Assembly (NCBI RefSeq): GCF_000379125.1
Contig: NZ_KB900626.1
Location: 638,017-649,332 of the forward strand
Origin: Methylosinus sp. LW4
Lineage (GTDB): Bacteria; Pseudomonadota; Alphaproteobacteria; Rhizobiales; Beijerinckiaceae
Length of the DNA: 11,316 nt
Direction: 5' to 3'
How positions within the stretch are numbered: position 1 is the first letter of the stretch; each line of letters starts with the position of its first letter. Below the pieces are notes generated by a model. It was not told the origin of the DNA. It worked only from the letters and a program-made list of their open reading frames with translations, and searched no databases. A program made the position numbers and the translations under genes. Positions 1 through 11,316 of this stretch are shown here, in pieces.

Positions 1-1042
1 CGATGTCCGCCATTGCGAAGAACGGGCGCCGCGCATGGACCCAGCACGCGGCCTCGCGGATCGGGCCGGGCTCGCGCCCCGGCAGATACAGCTTGCCGTA
101 GCCGTCATAGGCGTCCGCTTGCAGGATGCCGGACCAGTTCGCCAGATGGCTCTGCGGATGTTCGCCGCGCCGATCGCGCGAGTAATAGAACATCGCCGCC
201 GGCGGCCCGGCGGCGCCGAAGGGCGCGTCGTCGCGCACATAGACTCAGCAGCGGCCTGTGTCGGTCTTGCCCTTGGCCAGCACGGGAACCGTGGTGTCGT
301 CCCCGTGCAGCCGCTCGGCTGCGAGGACATGCGCCTCGACGAGACGCCGCAGCGGATCGAGTGCGGCGCAGATGGAGCCGACGGCGTCGGCCATGGTCGA
401 CAAGGCGATCGGCGCGCCTTCCAGCGCATAGCGCTCGGCCTGACGGTTCAGCGGTTGATGCTGGCCGAACTTCTCGAAGGCGATCATCGCCAGTAGGCTC
501 GGCCCCGCCCAGCCGCGCGCGACGACATGGAACGGCGCCGGCGCCTGGGTGATCTTCTCGCAGTCCCGGCAGGTGAACTTCTCCCGCACGGTCTCGATGA
601 CCTTCCACTGGCGTGGCGTCGTCTCCAGCGTCCGCGTCACATCCTCGCCGAGCTTGCGCAGGCGCGAACCGCCGCAGCAGGCGCAGGCCTTCGGCGCCTC
701 GATCACCACGCGCTCGCGCGGCAGATGGTCGGGAAAGGTGTTGCGCTCCGGCCGCCTGCGCTCGAAGCCGGCGACCGTGGTCGTCCTGGCGACGGCGTGC
801 TCCGCGGCGAGCTCGTCTTCCGCCGCGTTCGCTTCCAGCTCTTCGAGCTCTAGCGACAACTGATCGAGCAGCCGAGCCGAGCGCTCCGACTTCTGCCCAT
901 AGATCTGCCGCTGCAATTTGGCGATCTGGAGCTTTTGCGCGGCGATCAGCGCCATGTCTTCCGACGCCTTGGCGAGCGCGACGGCGAGTTGCGCCTTCAG
1001 CACGGCGTTTTCGTCGAGAAGGGCTCTGGCGGCGGCGTCCAT
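1..1042 (-). pseudogene. tnpC: IS66 transposase TnpC, nonsense-mutated and cut by the window edge
   Basis: This is the DDE transposase of the IS66 element. From the ATG at 1042 it shows a leucine-rich coiled N-terminus (DENAVLKAQLAVALAKA), the IQGQKSERS-like segment QIYGQKSERSARL, and a zinc-finger block with CACCGG and CRDC pairs. The start of the catalytic domain follows, with the first Asp in LHGDDTTVPVL. After 265 residues the frame meets TGA at 247-245, where relatives have Trp (TGRC-W-VYVRDD). Beyond the stop the same frame continues without damage to the window edge, through FYYSRDRRGEHPQ, ILQADAYDGY and ACWVHARRPFF. One G-to-A change (C-to-T at 245 on the plus strand) therefore explains the break. 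The family is about 520-550 residues, so the C-terminal third lies outside the window. An upstream ATG at 1195 is in frame but falls in tnpB sequence and past the insertion junction, so I reject it as the start. Confidence 0.9.
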
Positions 1043-1113
1043 GAGGCGAAGTGAATCACAAAACGCGCGATTTGTGGCGCCCCAAAATGCAGCCGACCCC
1101 AGCTTTTTCGGCC

Positions 1114-1173
1114 TCACCCGGCGCTTTGCGGCCTCCAGGTGAGTTGCGGATTCCGCCAATCGATCCCCTCGAA
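1114..1173 (-). pseudogene. tnpB: IS66 TnpB, detached 3' end (last 18 codons)
   Basis: Read on the minus strand, this short piece encodes EGIDWRNPQLTWRPQSAG followed by TGA at 1116-1114. That is the typical C-terminus of the IS66 accessory protein TnpB. It starts at the TTCGA shared with the other tnpB fragment near 5090. Joining the two at that pentamer gives one continuous 115-residue TnpB, the normal family length. The tnpC ATG follows 71 bases downstream, as expected in an IS66. The piece is too short to be found by ORF calling and was identified by reading across the tnpB break. Confidence 0.88.
1169..1173. repeat. TCGAA, left junction core of the recombinase element
   Basis: TCGAA lies exactly where the tnpB reading frame stops matching (minus-strand TTC GA, codons 97-98). 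The same pentamer is at 5090-5094. One copy is enough to rebuild tnpB, so it is either the shared att core or a 5-bp target duplication. Confidence 0.7.
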
Positions 1174-1217
1174 CGAAGGGGTTCAGGAATATCACCTCTG
1201 AGCAGTCTGATGAATCA

Positions 1218-1441
1218 TTGGTCGAGGTCGTGCAGGTTCACGATCCGCGCCATCCACTCTATGGACGATCCTTCCGCGTCGTCGGGCGCGGCAGATGTCC
1301 TGGCAGTGTTGTGTCGCCATCGTATGAAGTCGAATATCGAAACGGCAGCAGTCTACTGATCCCTATAGCTGTAACTGAGCCCTATGAAAGCGAGACGAAT
1401 CAGACTAAGCTGAGCATAGAGGCGCTTCGCGAGCTTATTTC
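1218..1441 (+). pseudogene. Small protein of unknown function (DUF5372-like), 5' part, split by IS256
   Basis: The first gene of the recombinase element begins with a TTG at 1218 (or GTG at 1230); the frame is open back through the left junction, so the start is uncertain. It encodes a basic N-terminus, VHDPRHPLYGRSFRVVGRGR, then a predicted beta-rich stretch and ALRELIS, where the IS256 enters. Removing 1442-2876 plus one CTTATTTC joins this to 2885-3008 in frame and gives 115 residues. Small proteins with an HP-L-G-F-V-G pattern, annotated DUF5372, are found upstream of recombinases like this one. That assignment is from memory and is moderate. No catalytic motif is evident; a role as a DNA-binding or directionality helper of the recombinase is only an inference. 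Confidence 0.6.
1434..1441. repeat. CTTATTTC, left target-site duplication of IS256
   Basis: This octamer abuts the left inverted repeat of the IS256-family element. An identical copy is at 2877-2884. Eight bases is a usual duplication length for the family, and removing the IS with one copy restores an open frame. Confidence 0.82.
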
Positions 1442-1467
1442 GGTCGTGCCCCCACCGGTGGTGTAGC
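1442..1467 (+). repeat. IS256 left terminal inverted repeat
   Basis: It starts GGTCGTGCCCC and ends GTGGTGTAGC. It matches the reverse complement of 2843-2868 at 21 of 26 positions, with all five mismatches clustered at positions 12-16. Confidence 0.85.
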
Positions 1468-1476
1468 AGTTCGGGA

Positions 1477-1531
1477 GCAAGCCGCTCGCGAAGCGCGCTT
1501 TTCGTAGCGCTGTAGCGAGCGAGCGGCTTGC
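1477..1531. promoter_or_regulatory. Long hairpin in the IS256 leader
   Basis: GCAAGCCGCTCGC (1477-1489) and GCGAGCGGCTTGC (1519-1531) form a perfect 13-bp inverted repeat around a 29-base loop. The loop contains a second perfect palindrome, AAGCGCGCTT (1491-1500). It lies between the left terminal repeat and the transposase start, 68 bases before the ATG. It could act as an attenuator of transcription entering from outside, or as a folding site for the element end. Function is inferred; the structure is seen. Confidence 0.6.
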
Positions 1532-1598
1532 GGCGGCCACCGGCGATTCTCCGGTTAGGGTCGGTTTGCGAATCTCAACGCAACCGAGGAACCCACCG

Positions 1599-2798
1599 AT
1601 GACCGACGAGATGATGAGCCTGCGGGCGCTTCTGGGAAAGTCCCCCGACGCCGATTTCCTTCGCGAGATGATCGGCTTCGCCGCCGAGCGGCTGATGGAG
1701 CTGGAGGTCGGCGCGAAGACCGGCGCCACGCTCGGCGAGCGCTCGCCCGATCGCGTGGCCCAGCGCAACGGCTATCGGGATCGCGACTGGGAGACGCGCG
1801 CTGGAACGGTGGAGCTGCGCATTCCCAAGCTCCGCAAGGGAACCTATTTCCCCTGCTTCCTCGAGCCGCGCCGCGTGGCCGAGAAGGCGTTGACGGCGGT
1901 GATCCAGGAGGCCTATGTGCAGGGCGTCTCGACCCGCTCCGTCGACGATCTCGTCAAAGCCATGGGCGGCTCCGGCGTCTCCAAGAGCCAGGTCAGCCGG
2001 CTCTGCGAGGAGATCGACGAAAAGGTCAAAGCCTTTCTCGATCGCCCGATCGAAGGCGATTGGCCCTATGTCTGGATCGACGCGACTTACGTCAAAGTCC
2101 GCCAGAACGGCCGCATCGTCTCGGTGGCCGTGATCGTCGCTATCGGCGTCAACAACGACGGACGGCGCGAGGTGCTCGGCATGGACATCGGCCCTTCGGA
2201 AGCCGAAACCTTCTGGACCGATTTTCTGCGCAAGCTCCGGCGGCGCGGCCTGCGCGGCGTCAAGCTCGTCGTCTCCGACGCCCACGAGGGAATAAAAGCC
2301 GCGGTCGCCAAGGTGATGCACGCCGGCTGGCAGCGTTGCCGGGTGCACTTCATGCGCAACGCGCTCGCCCATGCCGGCAAGAGCGGCCGCCGGGTCGTTT
2401 CCGCCTTCATCGCCACCGCCTTCGCCCAGGACGACGCCGACGCCGCCAAAATGCAGTGGCGCAAGGTCGCCGATCAGCTCCGCCCCACCTTGCCAAAGCT
2501 CGCCGTTCTCATGGACGAGGCGGAACAGGACGTGCTCGCCTACATGACCTTTCCCAAGGACCATTGGCAGAAGATCTATTCGACGAATGGTCTCGAGCGG
2601 GTGAATGGCGAGATCAAACGCCGCACCGAGGTCGTCGGCATCTTTCCCAATGAGGACGCCATCACCCGCCTCGTCGGCGCGATCCTGCTCGAGACGAACG
2701 ATGAATGGGCCGTGCAGCGCGGTCGCTACATGACGCTGGAAACCATCGCGTCTTTGAGCGATGATCCGATCGTCAGACTGTCCGCCGTGACCGCCTGA
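1599..2798 (+). CDS. IS256-family (Mutator-type) transposase
   Basis: This is a 399-residue DDE transposase of the IS256/Mutator group, intact from end to end. The catalytic triad is visible as D161 (WIDATYVKV), D227 (VVSDAHEGI) and E333 ([14 protein letters not shown]). The family C-x2-H motif ([11 protein letters not shown]247/H250) lies between the second and third. The N-terminal third carries the [20 protein letters not shown] and [13 protein letters not shown] blocks. The start is taken at the ATG at 1599 because GAGGA stands nine bases upstream and the length then fits the family (about 400); an in-frame TTG at 1566 is less likely. The 100-odd bases ahead of it fold into a long hairpin. 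There is no frameshift or stop, unlike in the surrounding IS66, so this is the youngest layer of the nest. Confidence 0.95.
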
Positions 2799-2842
2799 CC
2801 ATTCCGGCCATAGCCGAAAATACCGGTGTCCGCCTCGATCCA

Positions 2843-2868
2843 GCTACACCACGCTCTGGGGCACGACC
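2843..2868 (-). repeat. IS256 right terminal inverted repeat
   Basis: Read on the minus strand from 2868 it starts GGTCGTGCCCC and ends GTGGTGTAGC, pairing with 1442-1467 (21 of 26 identical). It lies 45 bases beyond the transposase stop codon. Confidence 0.85.
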
Positions 2869-2884
2869 CTTATTCCCTTATTTC
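2869..2884. repeat. Tandem CTTATTCC-CTTATTTC at the IS256 right end
   Basis: The exact duplicate CTTATTTC is at 2877-2884, but an almost identical octamer, CTTATTCC (2869-2876), separates it from the inverted repeat. The gene frame downstream (AGT CGC CGA read as TCA GTC GCC GAA after joining) uses the second copy. Confidence 0.75.
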
Positions 2885-3008
2885 AGTCGCCGAATGTCTC
2901 GAAGGCCATGAACATGGATCCGAAGGATCTTTGGGCGACGTTGCCATATGCTCTGCGCCGCCAAGTCGTCGTCGACATCGCGGCAGTTCTGGCGGAGCTC
3001 TCCCATGA
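2877..3008 (+). pseudogene. Small protein of unknown function (DUF5372-like), 3' part
   Basis: This is the continuation of the gene begun at 1218. After the CTTATTTC duplicate it reads SVAECLEGHEHGSEG and ends in an Arg/Ser/Gly-rich tail. The stop TGA at 3006-3008 overlaps the recombinase ATG at 3005 as ATGA, a typical arrangement for translational coupling. Together with the exact frame restoration after IS256 removal, that supports this being the real 3' end of a gene rather than a chance frame. The tail overlaps, in another frame, the small ORF at 2908, which may explain its low-complexity composition. Confidence 0.6.
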
Positions 3009-3156
3009 TGTCCGAACTGGTCAAGCCGACCCACTTGGCGCGCAAGGCCGTCGTCTATATCCGTCAGTCGACGCCTCATCAGGTCGTGAGCAATCAAGAA
3101 AGCCTGAGGCTGCAATACGCCCTCCGCCAGCGCGCTCGCGAGCTCGGATGGCATGA
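2908..3156 (+). CDS. Small ORF overlapping two neighbours, unknown function
   Basis: This 82-codon frame starts at ATG 2908 (a second ATG is at 2914), a few bases after GAAGG. Its first 45 residues (MNMDPKDLWATLPYALRRQV, then an Ala/Val-rich amphipathic helix ending AELSHDVRTG) look like a genuine helical protein. The rest runs antiregister through the recombinase catalytic domain and is Arg/Ser/Pro-rich. It overlaps the tail of the DUF5372-like gene by 101 bases and the recombinase by 152. I recall similar short proteins annotated between these two genes in rhizobial elements, but I cannot confirm conservation here. It could be translated and couple the two genes, or be a by-product of the overlap. 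Confidence 0.45.
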   Translation: MNMDPKDLWATLPYALRRQVVVDIAAVLAELSHDVRTGQADPLGAQGRRLYPSVDASSGREQSRKPEAAIRPPPARSRARMA

Positions 3157-5089
3157 AGCCGATATCGACGTGATCGACGCCGACCTCGGCCTCAGCGGAG
3201 CGTCCGCCGCCAAACGCAGCGGGTTCAAGGAACTCGTGGGTCGAGTCGGGCTCAGCGAGGTTGGGCTGATCCTGTCGATCGACGTGACCCGTCTCGCGCG
3301 CAATTGTTCGGACTGGTATCCGCTCCTGGATATCTGCGGCCTGCGCGGCTGCCTCATCGCCGATCGGGACGGCGTCTATGATCCTGGTAGCGCCAATGGT
3401 CGTCTTTTGCTCGGCCTGAAAGGGACCATATCGGAACTCGAGCTTCATACCATTCGCAGTCGGCTCACTGCCGGCCTGCTCGCAAAGGCCGAGCGTGGCG
3501 AGCTCGCGCTCAATCTGCCGGTCGGTCTGATGCGCGATCCGACGGGCGTCGTCGTCAAGGATCCCGATATATCGGTTCAAGAGCGGCTCGGGTTGGTGTT
3601 CGAGTTGTTTCAGAAGCTGGGCGCCGCCGCCAAGGTCATGCGCATGCTCAACGAGCGAGGTCTCGATCTGCCGCGTCGCGATAGGCGCGGCAATTTCTGC
3701 TGGGCGCGGGCGACGATATCGTCCGTGGCGTCGATTTTGAAGAATCCCGCCTATGCGGGCGCCTTTGTCTATGGACGGACGCGGATGCGAGCAGGCCGTG
3801 AAGGCGCACCGAAGATGAAGGCGCCGCAGCCTGTGGATGAATGGCGTATCGTCGTGAAGGACCGATATCCCGCCTACATCGATTGGCCAACCTATGAAAA
3901 AATAAACGCCGCCCTGAAGGACAACCGAGCCGAATACATGCGCATCAAAACCAGAGGCGCGCCTCGCGACGGCGATCTCCTGCTGCATGGGATCGCCTGG
4001 TGCGCGCGCTGCGGATACAAGATGTACGTCCTCTACAAGAGCGGCGGCGAATATGTCTGCAATCATCTCCGCTCCAACGAAGGCATGTCGGCCTGTCAAC
4101 ATGTTCGAGCGACGCCGATCGACGCCGCCGTGGCCGACGCATTCCTGACCGCGCTGGCGCCGGCGGAGCTCGACGCTTTGTCGAAGGCGCGTCGCGCGCA
4201 ATCACAGGTCGACGCGGCGCTGCGGACGAGCGCCGAGCGCCAGCTCGAACGTAAACGCTACGAGGCCACACTGGCCGAGCGGCAGTTCAATCGGGTGGAC
4301 CCGGACAATCGTCTCGTCGCCGCGGAGCTCGAACGCCGCTGGGAAGCGGCGCTGAACGAAGTCCGGGTGGCGGAGGAGGCGCTCGCCCGGCAAGCATCGC
4401 CTCAGAGTGGCGCACAGCTCGGGATCGGCAAATCACTGGAAGGCAAAGTCATCAACCTCGCGGGACGTCTGCCGCAAATCTGGGACGACCCGGCCACTTC
4501 CGACGCCCGCCGAAAGGCGCTGTTGCGATGCCTCATCGACAAGGTCATCCTCGACCGCGGCGACCACGATGTCGCGGTCGTCCGCATAGTCTGGCGCGGC
4601 GGGGCGGTAACTCGCCTGGAAGTCAAAATGAGGGTCACCTCACTCTCCAAGCTCGCGCGCGGCGAAGAAATGCGTCAGCGCGCTCTCGCCTTGGCGCGTG
4701 AGGGCCTCGACGATGACGCGATCGCCGCCGTTCTCACGAGTGAAGGGCATCGCTCGCCGACCTGCGAGGACAAGGTCCTCCCCGTGACCGTGCAGAAGAT
4801 CCGGCTCGCCGAGAAAGTCGAGCTGCGGCGCCCACGCACGCGATGGACCCATGGCAGGGAAGCTCTGTCCGCGCCTGAACTGGCCGCCAAGCTGAGCATC
4901 CCCGTGAACTGGCTCTATGTGCAAATCCGAAAACAGCGGCTGACGGTCGATCGACAACCCAACGGCGCGTATATTTTCAGCGACACCGAGTACGTCCTGA
5001 AGGGAGTTCGAGATCTCCGAAACCACGCGATCGGCAGTCTCGATCTCAGAATCTGTCAGCTTGACCAGGAGGGGCATCAACATGGGTGA
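3005..5089 (+). CDS. Large serine recombinase (resolvase/invertase family)
   Basis: This 694-residue site-specific recombinase probably moves the element that carries it. The N-terminal catalytic domain shows the nucleophile Ser22 in VVYIRQST and the conserved arginines in SIDVTRLARN. A Recombinase domain follows at about 166-310 (GLMRDP, LKNPAYAGAFVYGRTR). A zinc-ribbon comes next, with cysteines at about 333, 336, 352 and 364 (CARCGYKMY, then YVCNHL and SACQH), then a charged coiled coil at about 392-461. The C-terminal part contains two helix-turn-helix-like stretches (LAREGLDDDAIAAVL and SAPELAAKLSIPVNWLYVQIR). The start is placed at the ATG at 3005, with GGAG seven bases upstream and an ATGA overlap with the gene before it; ATG 3008 is an alternative. 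An open frame reaches back to 2948 but lacks support. The TGA ends at 5089, exactly at the element boundary. Confidence 0.93.
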   Translation: MMSELVKPTHLARKAVVYIRQSTPHQVVSNQESLRLQYALRQRARELGWHEADIDVIDADLGLSGASAAKRSGFKELVGRVGLSEVGLILSIDVTRLARNCSDWYPLLDICGLRGCLIADRDGVYDPGSANGRLLLGLKGTISELELHTIRSRLTAGLLAKAERGELALNLPVGLMRDPTGVVVKDPDISVQERLGLVFELFQKLGAAAKVMRMLNERGLDLPRRDRRGNFCWARATISSVASILKNPAYAGAFVYGRTRMRAGREGAPKMKAPQPVDEWRIVVKDRYPAYIDWPTYEKINAALKDNRAEYMRIKTRGAPRDGDLLLHGIAWCARCGYKMYVLYKSGGEYVCNHLRSNEGMSACQHVRATPIDAAVADAFLTALAPAELDALSKARRAQSQVDAALRTSAERQLERKRYEATLAERQFNRVDPDNRLVAAELERRWEAALNEVRVAEEALARQASPQSGAQLGIGKSLEGKVINLAGRLPQIWDDPATSDARRKALLRCLIDKVILDRGDHDVAVVRIVWRGGAVTRLEVKMRVTSLSKLARGEEMRQRALALAREGLDDDAIAAVLTSEGHRSPTCEDKVLPVTVQKIRLAEKVELRRPRTRWTHGREALSAPELAAKLSIPVNWLYVQIRKQRLTVDRQPNGAYIFSDTEYVLKGVRDLRNHAIGSLDLRICQLDQEGHQHG

Positions 5090-5094
5090 TCGAA
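5090..5094. repeat. TCGAA, right junction core of the recombinase element
   Basis: It immediately follows the recombinase stop codon (TGA at 5087-5089) and matches 1169-1173. On the minus strand it is TTCGA, in codons 97-98 of tnpB. Confidence 0.7.
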
Positions 5095-5382
5095 TAGAGC
5101 TTCGAACTGCACCCGGCTCAATTGCAGGACGCCGTCGCTGACCTGCGGCCAAGAAAAACCGTTATCGCCAAGATGCTTGTAGATCAGCACTAGTCCGGTT
5201 CCGTTCCACAACAAAATCTTCAAGCGATCCTTTCGCTTCGAGCGGAACACGACGATGAGGCCGGAATGCGGATAGAGTCCGAGCTTGTTTTGTACCAGAG
5301 CGGCCAGCGCATCATGCCCGCAGCGAAAATCGACGGGGCGCATGGCGAGCACGATCCGCAACCCTTGCGACGGAATGATCAC
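5090..5382 (-). pseudogene. tnpB: IS66 accessory protein TnpB, 5' part (97 codons)
   Basis: TnpB is the small conserved accessory protein needed for IS66 transposition. Its hallmarks are present: AMRPVDFRCGHDALAALV, then FRSKRKDRLKILLWNGTGLVL and the SRVQFEALF near the C-terminus. The GTG start at 5382 overlaps the tnpA stop as GTGA. After F97 the frame runs into the recombinase element and would end four residues later (DHPC, stop at 5079-5077). The missing EGIDWRNPQ tail is at 1173-1114, 3.9 kb away. The two pieces join in frame at TTCGA, so the insertion is precise and tnpB has no other damage. Confidence 0.92.
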
Positions 5383-5786
5383 GCGCCGCGCTCCAGCGCC
5401 GTCATGATCTCGGCGATGCGCGTCGACGCGGTGTCCTGCTCCAATCGTAGCACGACCTTGCCGACGACGATCTCGATCTTCGCATCGCTCTCATTACGAA
5501 CGGACGGCTGCTCGAGCTCGATCTCCACGAACTCCGCGGGACCGTCGGTCACGAGCGCGAGCCGCCCGGCGCGCGCCTGGCGGCGCCATTGCGTCAATTG
5601 CTGCGCGCATATCCGATATTTGCGGGCCACGTCGGCGACGCGTACTTCAGGCGCGAGACTCTCTCGCATGATACGGCCCTTCAGGTCCTTCGATCACAGC
5701 CGATTGCCCGAACGTGAACGACGACAATCCACACGCCCAACAAATCCTGTGCCAAAAGCCGTTTCGACCGTCGCATTCTCGTTCAT
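5379..5786 (-). pseudogene. tnpA: IS66 accessory protein TnpA, nonsense-mutated
   Basis: TnpA is the HTH-type first ORF of IS66. From the ATG at 5786, preceded by GGAAGG, the frame encodes 135 residues. It opens MNENATVETAFGTG, continues to RSGNRL, meets TGA at codon 31 (5696-5694), then goes on as SKDLKGRIMRESLAPEVRVADVARKY and CAQQLTQWRRQARAG. That last block is the family helix-turn-helix. Relatives have a Trp just before S-K/E-x-K (pattern R-x-W-S), so a TGG-to-TGA change is the simplest explanation. A downstream ATG at 5669 could restart translation and would give a 96-residue protein lacking the N-terminus. The gene ends in a GTGA overlap with tnpB. This is the second Trp-to-stop change in the same IS. 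Confidence 0.82.
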
Positions 5787-5834
5787 CTTCGGATCCTTCC
5801 AGAGACATGGCTGTCCCTCGGAAGAATCTCACAT

Positions 5835-5885
5835 CGAAAAATCCGCCAGAACCCGAAAAATCAATGGGGTCGCAACGGCGCTTGC
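5835..5885 (-). repeat. IS66 terminal region with two CGAAAAATC repeats
   Basis: The minus-strand terminus is read as GCAAGCGCCGTTGCGACC starting at 5885. Just inside it, the 9-mer CGAAAAATC occurs twice on the plus strand (5835-5843 and 5854-5862), one centre 19 bases from the other, about two helical turns. Such spacing would suit a transposition protein binding near the end. The partner end is outside the window, so the inverted repeat cannot be verified. Confidence 0.5.
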
Positions 5886-5893
5886 GATGGATT

Positions 5894-6757
5894 TTAGTCC
5901 AATAATTGGCTCAGATAGGCACCATATTGGCTCTTGGCGAATTTCTGCGCGGCGGCGCGCAGCGCCTTGGCGTCGATCCAGCCCTGGTGGAAGGCGATCT
6001 CCTCGAGGCAGGCGATGCGCTGACCCTGTCGCAGCTCTATGGCGCGGACATATTCGGCCGCCTCCAGCAGCGAGGCCGGCGTGCCCGTGTCGAGCCAGGC
6101 GAAGCCGCGACCCAATCGCTCGACATTCAGCTCGCCGCGCTGGAGATAGACATTGTTGAGATCGGTGATCTCCAATTCGCCGCGCGGCGACGGCTTCAGC
6201 TCCGCCGCGAAATGCGGGGCGCGATCGTCGTAGAAATAGAGGCCCGTGACCGCCCAATTGGATTTCGGCGCTTTCGGCTTTTCCTCGAGCGACAATGCGC
6301 GGCCCTGCGCGTCGAAATCGACGACGCCGTAACGCTCGGGATCGGCGACGTGATAAGCGAAGACGGTGGCGCCGCGGCGCGATGCTTTCGCCTTGGTCAG
6401 CGATTCCGTGAGGCCATGGCCGTAGAAGATATTGTCGCCGAGCACCAGAACGGAGCTTCTTCCTTCGACGAAGCTCGCGCCGATGATATAGGCCTGCGCC
6501 AGCCCATCTGGACGCGGCTGCGCGGCGTAGGAGAGCGAGAGACCCCATTGCGCGCCGGAGCCGAGCAGGCGCTTGAACGCCGCTTCGTCCTCGGGAGTCG
6601 TGATGACGAGAATTTCGCGCACGCCCGCGAGCATCAGCGCGCTCAGAGGATAATAGATCATCGGCTTGTCATAGACGGGCAGCAATTGCTTGGAGACGGC
6701 GAGCGTCGCGGGATGAAGGCGCGTTCCGCTGCCGCCGGCGAGAATAATTCCACGCAT
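5894..6757 (-). CDS. rmlA: Glucose-1-phosphate thymidylyltransferase RmlA
   Basis: RmlA makes dTDP-glucose from dTTP and glucose-1-phosphate, the first step of the dTDP-L-rhamnose pathway, in the cytoplasm. The 287-residue length is normal. Visible motifs are the nucleotide-binding loop [11 protein letters not shown] at residues 6-16, [12 protein letters not shown], then [20 protein letters not shown] and [16 protein letters not shown]. The ATG at 6757 is chosen because the conserved MRGIILAGG begins there and GAGGAG lies seven bases upstream; the frame is open further but carries no family sequence. It starts one base after the rmlD stop, so translation is probably coupled. Eight bases after its stop the IS66 begins, so any native terminator or downstream operon gene has been displaced. 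Confidence 0.97.
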
Positions 6758-10861: not shown

Positions 10862-11239
10862 TCATGCCTGATTACAAAGCCTTCTGAGCATGAGGCGGAT
10901 GGAAGCGAGGTGAAGAAACGCCAGCGCCTTGCGATTGAGGTTTTCGAAGTCCTTGGCCAGCCTTCGGCAGCGACCGAGCCAAGAAAAGGTTCTTTCGACG
11001 ACCCATCGGCGAGGCAGCGCCTCGAAACCTTTGGCCGCATCCGAGCGCTTGACGATCTCGGTGTCGACAAACGGCAGGGCCTTCTTCTGTGCGTCACCGA
11101 ACTGCGGGCCCTGATAGCCGCCGTCGGCAAACAGCTTTTGTAGAAATGGGAATTTTCCAAACATCGTGCGCAGGACGAGAACGCCGCCATCGCGATCCTG
11201 AATGTCGGCCGGATGAACGAGCGCGTGAAGCAGCAAGCG
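10862..11239 (-). pseudogene. IS5-family transposase, C-terminal half only
   Basis: The frame encodes the last 126 or so residues of an IS5-family (IS427-like) DDE transposase. It begins abruptly at LLLHALVHPADIQDRDGG and includes the second catalytic Asp (KLFADGGYQGP), KTEIVKRSDAAKGF-like sequence and the Glu block RRWVVERTFSWLGRCRRLAKDF. It ends NRKALAFLHLASIRLMLRRLCNQA, as in the family. The N-terminal half with the first Asp is missing. Homology stops at about 11239, where a different sequence begins, so the gene was cut by another insertion or by a deletion. The 3' terminal repeat of this IS may lie near 10840-10855 (CTCAGAGTCGGTCC), but that could not be verified. Confidence 0.85.
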
Positions 11240-11316
11240 GGAGTGTCAGGAATTTCGTGTGTGGGCGGGCGGGTTGAACATCGTCAGACCATCGCTCTTG
11301 TGAAGCGCTCGCCGAA
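11240..11316 (+). mobile_element. Probable terminus of another insertion sequence, cut by the window edge
   Basis: Immediately after the break in the IS5 transposase the sequence reads GGAGTGTCAGGAATTTCGTG and continues into a noncoding leader. GxGTGTnnGGAATTT-like ends followed by a transposase leader occur in IS256-family elements, so this is probably the left end of such an IS. Only 77 bases are visible and no transposase is reached, so the family is tentative. Confidence 0.4.

Follow-up and report, generated by a model that had tools for sequence, protein, structure and literature searches.

The 11,316 bp stretch of Methylosinus sp. LW4 DNA analysed here (the window) contains a 3916 bp segment that is best interpreted, with a probability of about 78%, as a minimal integrative element of the large serine recombinase (LSR) type, which has its attachment site in an IS66 tnpB gene and a small partner gene that is completed by circularisation. 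Comparison of sequences establishes the site, its use in both orientations, the crossover position and the recurrence in relatives, and likewise establishes that a Shine-Dalgarno sequence and ATG at the right end are in frame, across the joined ends, with a small ORF lacking an ATG. The window lies within a 3.97-Mb contig, and its features are listed in Table 1.

Table 1. Positions of features in the window
Feature	Position	Strand	Basis
IS66 type A half: tnpC and 3′-end of tnpB	1..1172	-	PF03050, PF13007, PF13005
IS66-A tnpC	245-1042; also 2-238 in another frame, off left edge	-	
IS66-A tnpB 3′-end (EGIDWRNPQ..)	within 1..1172	-	
attL, left junction: TCG and crossover dinucleotide AA (1172-1173)	1169..1173	.	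position matched in relatives
Serine-recombinase mini-element	1174..5089	+	bounds from IS66-A and IS66-B copies and relatives
DUF5372-like small ORF body	1176-1441, then 2885-3008	+	
IS256-family element (transposase 1599-2798)	1442..2868	+	PF00872 7.5e-128; NF033543 above cut-off
CTTATTCC and CTTATTTC, extra imperfect octamer beside IS256 target duplication	2869..2884	+	sequence, flanks
Predicted large serine recombinase (LSR), 694 aa	3005..5089	+	PF00239, PF07508, PF13408
Shine-Dalgarno AGGAGGGG (5067-5074) and ATG (5082-5084), element right end	5067..5084	+	
attR, right junction: TCG and crossover dinucleotide AA (5093-5094)	5090..5094	.	
IS66 type B half	5090..5885	-	PF05717, PF01527
IS66-B parts	tnpB 5′ part 5095-5382; tnpA 5379-5669; terminal repeat end 5885	-	

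The first-pass annotation of this DNA described three nested layers, an IS256 element within a serine-recombinase element within IS66 DNA, and domain searches and direct repeats confirm that these layers are real. The predicted recombinase has the domain order of an LSR, with Resolvase, Recombinase and zinc ribbon domains that all exceed their cut-offs (E-values 3e-19, 1.6e-14 and 2.9e-06, respectively), and its frame is open throughout in the integrated form. Both pairs of direct repeats are present, TCGAA at 1169-1173 and 5090-5094 and CTTATTTC at 1434-1441 and 2877-2884. A predicted Mutator-type transposase together with terminal inverted repeats places the innermost layer in the IS256 family, members of which produce a direct target duplication of 8-9 bp. 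Removal of 1442-2876 with one copy of CTTATTTC gives an open frame as originally proposed, and this join is right because the counterpart in L015, which has no IS256, aligns gap-free across it (by eye). However, the extent given for the IS was too long, as the inverted repeats are at 1442-1467 and 2843-2868 (26 nt, 81% complementary) and the IS therefore ends at 2868 and not at 2876. The removed 1435 bp block consists of 1427 bp of IS and an imperfect 8-mer, CTTATTCC (2869-2876), and without this block the mini-element is 2481 bp. CTTATTTC is found on both sides of the IS with the extra CTTATTCC between the IS end and the right copy, and the octamer is present in three near-copies instead of two.

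The IS66 DNA on either side of the mini-element, which had been taken for one IS66, is of two types. A copy elsewhere in the same genome (L058) is 99.3% identical to positions 160-1172 (type A) and then runs on into a different tnpB. Another (L059) is 97.4% identical to 5090-5555 (type B) and continues in the opposite direction into the end of its own tnpB, and a further type B copy (L133) is 94.5% identical to the B half over 800 bp. The TnpB proteins of types A and B share 38% identity over 103 residues. All 10 of the A copies that were read, L058 and nine other loci, continue with GCATATAGG.. past the junction. Of 8 B copies, 7 run on into the B ending and one is cut at the junction by an IS110 gene. 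Both kinds of copy cease to match the window at the TCGA/TCGAA boundary. An element of the IS66 family has matching terminal inverted repeats and an 8-bp target duplication around it. The composite has unlike terminal repeats (left GTAAGCATCC.., right GCAAGCGCCG..), and its 8-bp flanks, TTCGCGAG and GATGGATT, do not match. The two sides are assigned to different types because the copies diverge at the junction and the repeats and flanks differ. The set of tnpA, tnpB and tnpC is complete in the window but drawn from both types. The left side of the composite is also locally duplicated.

Removal of 1174-5089 with one TCGAA does restore an open frame of 115 codons as had been claimed, but the product is not a genuine single TnpB; it is a hybrid, because IS66 DNA of two types is joined at the recombinase crossover. 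Sequences of intact copies do not continue across the TCGAA join, and a search of related genomes for the uninterrupted hybrid site, with a 600-nt joined probe, gave half matches only. The hybrid was not found intact in 10 genomes of the genus and 297 of the order, among 40 candidates scored per genome (genus) or the two best per genome (order), short partial matches being uncounted. Outside the window, matches of at least 77% identity comprised 13 to the A half and 9 to the B half, none extending more than about 20 bases beyond the junction, and those fetched for reading are a subset of all matches. The idea that the IS66 TnpB is a single gene with a simple interruption was rejected on the joined probe and the divergence of the A and B copies at the junction, and from these comparisons the window has IS66 halves of two types joined through the recombinase element.

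The same observations bear on the simplest history, in which the recombinase element entered one IS66 and IS256 followed. That history would account for both joins being open in frame, and relatives do enter tnpB genes with both halves present, but it is very improbable given that the type switches at the crossover, that neither set of half matches in the genomes searched extends more than about 20 bases beyond the junction, and that terminal repeats and flanks disagree. Of the nesting first proposed, IS256 within the recombinase element stands, and insertion into one IS66 is too simple. The window element instead forms the seam between two IS66 types, created via recombination at or within the element. 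Whether two copies of the element, one in IS66-A and one in IS66-B, underwent homologous recombination, or the recombinase acted on two IS66 sites, is evenly balanced. The former requires only the common process of homologous recombination and yields this structure, but it predicts AG at attL, as in the IS66-A copies at the same place, where the window has AA, and a second copy of the element was not found in the Methylosinus genome.

Related elements were collected by scanning genome contigs with the LSR as query, which returned 42 loci; L044, L051 and L056 (<40% identity) were dropped, leaving 39 in family 1. These relatives have the same kind of element ends as the junctions at 1170 and 5090, the two points at which an assembly error was considered. 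In 36 of the 39, IS66 tnpB borders the element on one side or both, at the same codons, in about ten loci in the same orientation as the element and in the others in the opposite one. Thirty were called with a tnpB HMM built here, including L029 and L038, where the LSR is split by another insertion, and the fragment L043. The other six were called from the codons that follow the site, read by eye or matched by regex (L027, which is weak, L028, L032, L047, L050 and L053). The target is a conserved codon block, Leu/Phe-Glu/Asp-Gly-x-Asp-Trp, with the crossover at bases one and two of its Leu/Phe codon, just ahead of Glu/Asp-Gly. The crossover dinucleotide is CT or TT with one orientation and AG or AA with the other, with a one-base mismatch in a few loci. 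Some ends were missed by the end-finding regexes, and the target and frame counts pool several scans. The three exceptions, judged by eye, are L024 in an hsdR-like gene, L054 in a UDP-glucose dehydrogenase-like gene, and L023, in a gene to which no name was given. The tnpB codon block is, on these flanks, a recurrent target of the predicted recombinase family. In a class-wide sample, LSRs at E≤1e-60 were present in 10 of 385 genomes.

More distant elements, with LSRs mostly 33-45% identical, were also retrieved, and this set is what the searches returned and not an unbiased count. Their targets include IS66 tnpC (L137, L138, L140, L148 and L155), a different codon of IS66 tnpB (second copies of L138 and L181, and L193), IS21 istA (L183, L187 and L194) or istB (L157, L168, L185 and L189), genes of IS3 (L188 and L192), IS5 (L191) and IS110 (L154), and a group II intron reverse transcriptase (L186). 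Names for L137, L138 and L140 were checked by Pfam and the others were given by eye from flank translations. Two are unsure, L150 (one side IS4-like) and L190 (transposase-like), and L149, L151, L142, L146 and L184 are left out of these assignments. Ordinary genes are the target in 2 of 21 distant elements, L147 (nucleoside hydrolase-like) and L136. L182 lies within another recombinase gene. Target labels, assigned by the analyst, cluster on an LSR tree of 50 rows, changing 15 times vs 29.5 times when shuffled, with none of 200 shuffles as low. A 'DUF' match at the second L138 copy was spurious, being antisense to tnpC, and was not used.

In most elements a DUF5372-like ORF is located upstream of the LSR gene and is open up to the left boundary. 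In the window, the part of the small ORF that precedes IS256 has no in-frame ATG, only TTG and GTG codons. Its TGA (3006-3008) overlaps the LSR start in an ATGA, and the same spacing is seen in 24 of 27 family-1 loci, differing in L031, L039 and L049. The right end of most intact elements carries a Shine-Dalgarno sequence and an ATG, located inside the LSR C-terminus, on the LSR stop as ATGA, or just past the stop. When the ends of the window element are joined as a circle, this ATG is in frame with the small ORF. With the small ORF ending over the LSR start and the LSR gene ending at this ATG, the circle would be a closed loop of overlapping genes. The attP of a split integrase lies within the integrase gene; here the LSR ORF is open and the small ORF is the one that is split.

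The frame relation was assessed in relatives, the frame of the interrupted gene supplying the insertion length modulo 3. The ATG is in frame with the small ORF in 20 of 22 assessable family-1 elements, 9/9 in the same orientation and 11/13 in the opposite one; among these 11, a manually relaxed tnpB motif was used for L021, L036 and L178, and L029 and L038 are near-copies. The two that are out of frame, L033 and L049, both have a frameshifted LSR and are decayed, yet L041, also frameshifted, is in frame. Not counted were L017, L028, L032, L037, L050, L053, L181 and L182 (end pattern not found), L022, L023, L024 and L145 (left flank or motif not tnpB) and L018 (left end off the contig). Joining in silico gives M-x-D/S-R-.. 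followed by a conserved block in 21 of 22 family-1 elements, L144 having been joined at the wrong spot. For the distant elements, 21 of 26 were used, omitting the second L138 copy, L149, L150, L151 and L190 (no identified flank gene or ORF). The first ATG is in frame in 17 of 21 vs 7 expected by chance, and the ATG after a Shine-Dalgarno sequence in 20 of 20, using a pattern list drawn up after viewing the distant-element ends. L185 has no Shine-Dalgarno sequence by this rule, and its sole ATG is in frame. Members of a family inherit their frame agreement, and the number of independent cases is therefore estimated to be nearer ten than forty.

Proteins that begin at the predicted junction are present in databases. 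One joined small ORF, searched against 5.8 billion proteins, gave 128 matches, 120 of which were listed. Among the matches listed, most of those reaching the left end of the element have unrelated N-terminal tails (by eye), as expected of integrated copies. The predicted junction start was found in 4 of the 136 family-1 proteins listed from this and a second search combined, P0007 (MHDRAK), P0030 (MRDRTK), P0062 (MHDRSK) and P0086 (MGSRSK), and 125 of the 136 fit a loose block pattern. The P0086 contig is 2502 bp, about the length of one element (2481 bp). A search with a family-2 protein gave 246 matches, and the 120 listed include one junction-type start, P0159, which begins MTQASPSPVHSAHVGQ, near the predicted MTHASSSPVHSAHVGQ. 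Junction-start proteins could come from tandem copies instead of circles. No circle was observed as DNA in viral contigs, where the attP pattern gave no matches and from which the LSR is also absent.

The right-end Shine-Dalgarno sequence and ATG might merely form part of the attP recognition sequence, the small ORF being an ordinary gene started at a weak internal GTG or TTG. The attP arms have to be conserved at the DNA level, in-frame GTG or TTG codons occur in the N-terminal block of 13 of 19 relatives, protein-level constraint in that block is weak (pN/pS 0.70 vs 0.26 in the core), and L031 and L180, whose LSRs are near-copies, lack a right-end ATG. Against this, the block is devoid of ATG, GTG and TTG in 6 of the 19 sequences, the database includes proteins beginning at the junction ATG, and distant families with different ends keep the Shine-Dalgarno sequence and an ATG that frequently overlaps the LSR stop (ATGA) and is in frame in every case under the Shine-Dalgarno rule. 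The proper frame of the block has a stop in none of the 19 sequences, compared with 3 and 19 for the other two frames. An internal start is unlikely, although the lack of an ATG in L031 and L180 and the internal GTG and TTG codons slightly reduce confidence in the overall reading of a gene completed by the circle.

The small ORF is termed DUF5372-like only, as the window piece scores 12 bits against the DUF5372 (PF17342) gathering cut-off of 25 (E 0.23). The distant relatives L194 (1.9e-25) and L136 (1.7e-17) pass this cut-off, and L138, L189 and L019 fail. A structural model of the small protein built from 16 sequences is of low confidence (pLDDT 69, pTM 0.42), and Foldseek found no match to it in the PDB at E≤0.001. 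Its strands suggest that the protein is perhaps a small beta barrel, and assignment of a DUF5372 function via the fold was abandoned, there being no significant structural match and a poor model.

Under the favoured interpretation, that of a hyperparasitic mini-element, the predicted LSR would excise the element as a circle, from which the small protein and, through coupling, the recombinase could be made. The small protein may then help re-integration, and integration into a transposase gene would part the start from the body and turn the small ORF off. A role as integration partner is inferred from when the protein could be made, with a role as directionality factor as the rival. In the window, IS256 broke the small ORF later, and this copy is probably immobile because the small ORF is broken and the element joins two IS66 types. 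The element belongs to an apparently undescribed serine-recombinase clade with transposon genes as most of its attachment sites and a partner gene split at attP. A broader proposal is marginally favoured, namely that this is an LSR clade of elements with two to three genes residing mainly inside genes that belong to other mobile elements, with every lineage specific for one conserved block of transposase codons and with a DUF5372-like protein made only from the circle. Circularisation would close a ring of genes coupled in translation and integration into the prey would reopen it, expression thereby reporting the free vs the integrated state.

If true, integrases would gain many-copy targets, transposase genes, that the host can spare, and mobile elements would be seen to prey on mobile elements at codon precision. 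This would explain how IS66 elements recombine into chimeras, and would provide a sequence-level test for a gene that is whole only in an excised circle. In addition, the recombinases are natural enzymes whose attP/attB pairs can be read off. In open-access titles and the starts of abstracts, with subscription papers outside this scope, no description of such an element was found, and genes reconstituted in a circle were represented by analogues only. No paper on DUF5372 was found in the open-access literature.

Several known systems share single properties with the window element. LSR integrative elements (Durrant et al. 2022, PMC10083194) have the same recombinase domains and a short core within a conserved gene site, but the window element is about 2.5 kb, has a DUF5372-like partner, targets transposons and has its partner ORF split across attP; 'IS66' and 'insertion sequence' do not occur in the main text of that paper. 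The 'suicidal' tyrosine integrases of archaea, e.g. of SSV1 (PMC8371274), resemble it in that a gene intact in the circle is broken on integration. In their case this gene encodes the integrase, whereas the window element keeps an intact serine recombinase and has a small partner ORF separated from its start. Helper-embedded PICI satellites (PMC10111431) also have an integrase lineage specialised on the genes of another mobile element, a clade targeting prophage late genes, but these are phage satellites with a prophage as host, in contrast to a 2.5-kb element within an insertion sequence. The IS607-family serine transposases (PMC4058570) likewise drive a small element with a serine recombinase, but have an inverted domain order and minimal target specificity, whereas the window element encodes a predicted large recombinase directed to a fixed codon block.

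An additional ORF (LWATLPYALRRQVVVDIAAVLAEL..), read in another frame, spans the end of the small DUF5372-like ORF and the start of the large serine recombinase (LSR) gene, and a similar ORF is present in L144, a relative of this LSR element. It may represent a third, overlapping gene. At the IS256 insertion, the CTTATTTC duplication is adjoined by a further, imperfect octamer, CTTATTCC, which may have arisen by slippage, may be a circle-junction spacer carried along with the element, or may be there by chance.

To the left of the window, the tail of the IS66 type found left of the recombinase element (IS66-A) is doubled as a direct repeat, and further IS66-A pieces in both orientations lie approximately 10 kb upstream. 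The remnant near the right edge of the window shares the motif GTGTCAGGAATTTCGTGTG with the point at which tnpC is interrupted in L058, an IS66-A copy in the same genome.

Features within and outside the window.
Feature	Location	Coordinates
IS256 duplication and octamer	window	2869-2884
Other-frame ORF	window	2908-3156
Remnant resembling a transposase (IS5 type, judged by eye)	window	10862-11316
342-bp direct repeat	L057, left of the window (C1)	10809-11512
Start of IS110-like gene	L134, genus-mate	6193-6415
Apparent insertion of one element in another (by eye)	L182	2782-5241
Possible second seam	L022, R. capsulatus DSM 1710	5618
Decayed second element	L141, own genome (C2)	~793000

In a copy of the right-hand type, IS66-B, an IS110-like gene starts at the tnpB attachment site, and in L182 one element seems to have inserted into a second serine recombinase gene, within its resolvase domain. 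L022, a relative of the window LSR element, carries tnpB in its right flank alone, the left flank being not recognisably IS66, and is perhaps another seam like that of the window. The second element in the Methylosinus sp. LW4 genome belongs to the tnpC-targeting family, and the start of its LSR is 95% identical to that of L137, a distant LSR element located in an IS66 tnpC.
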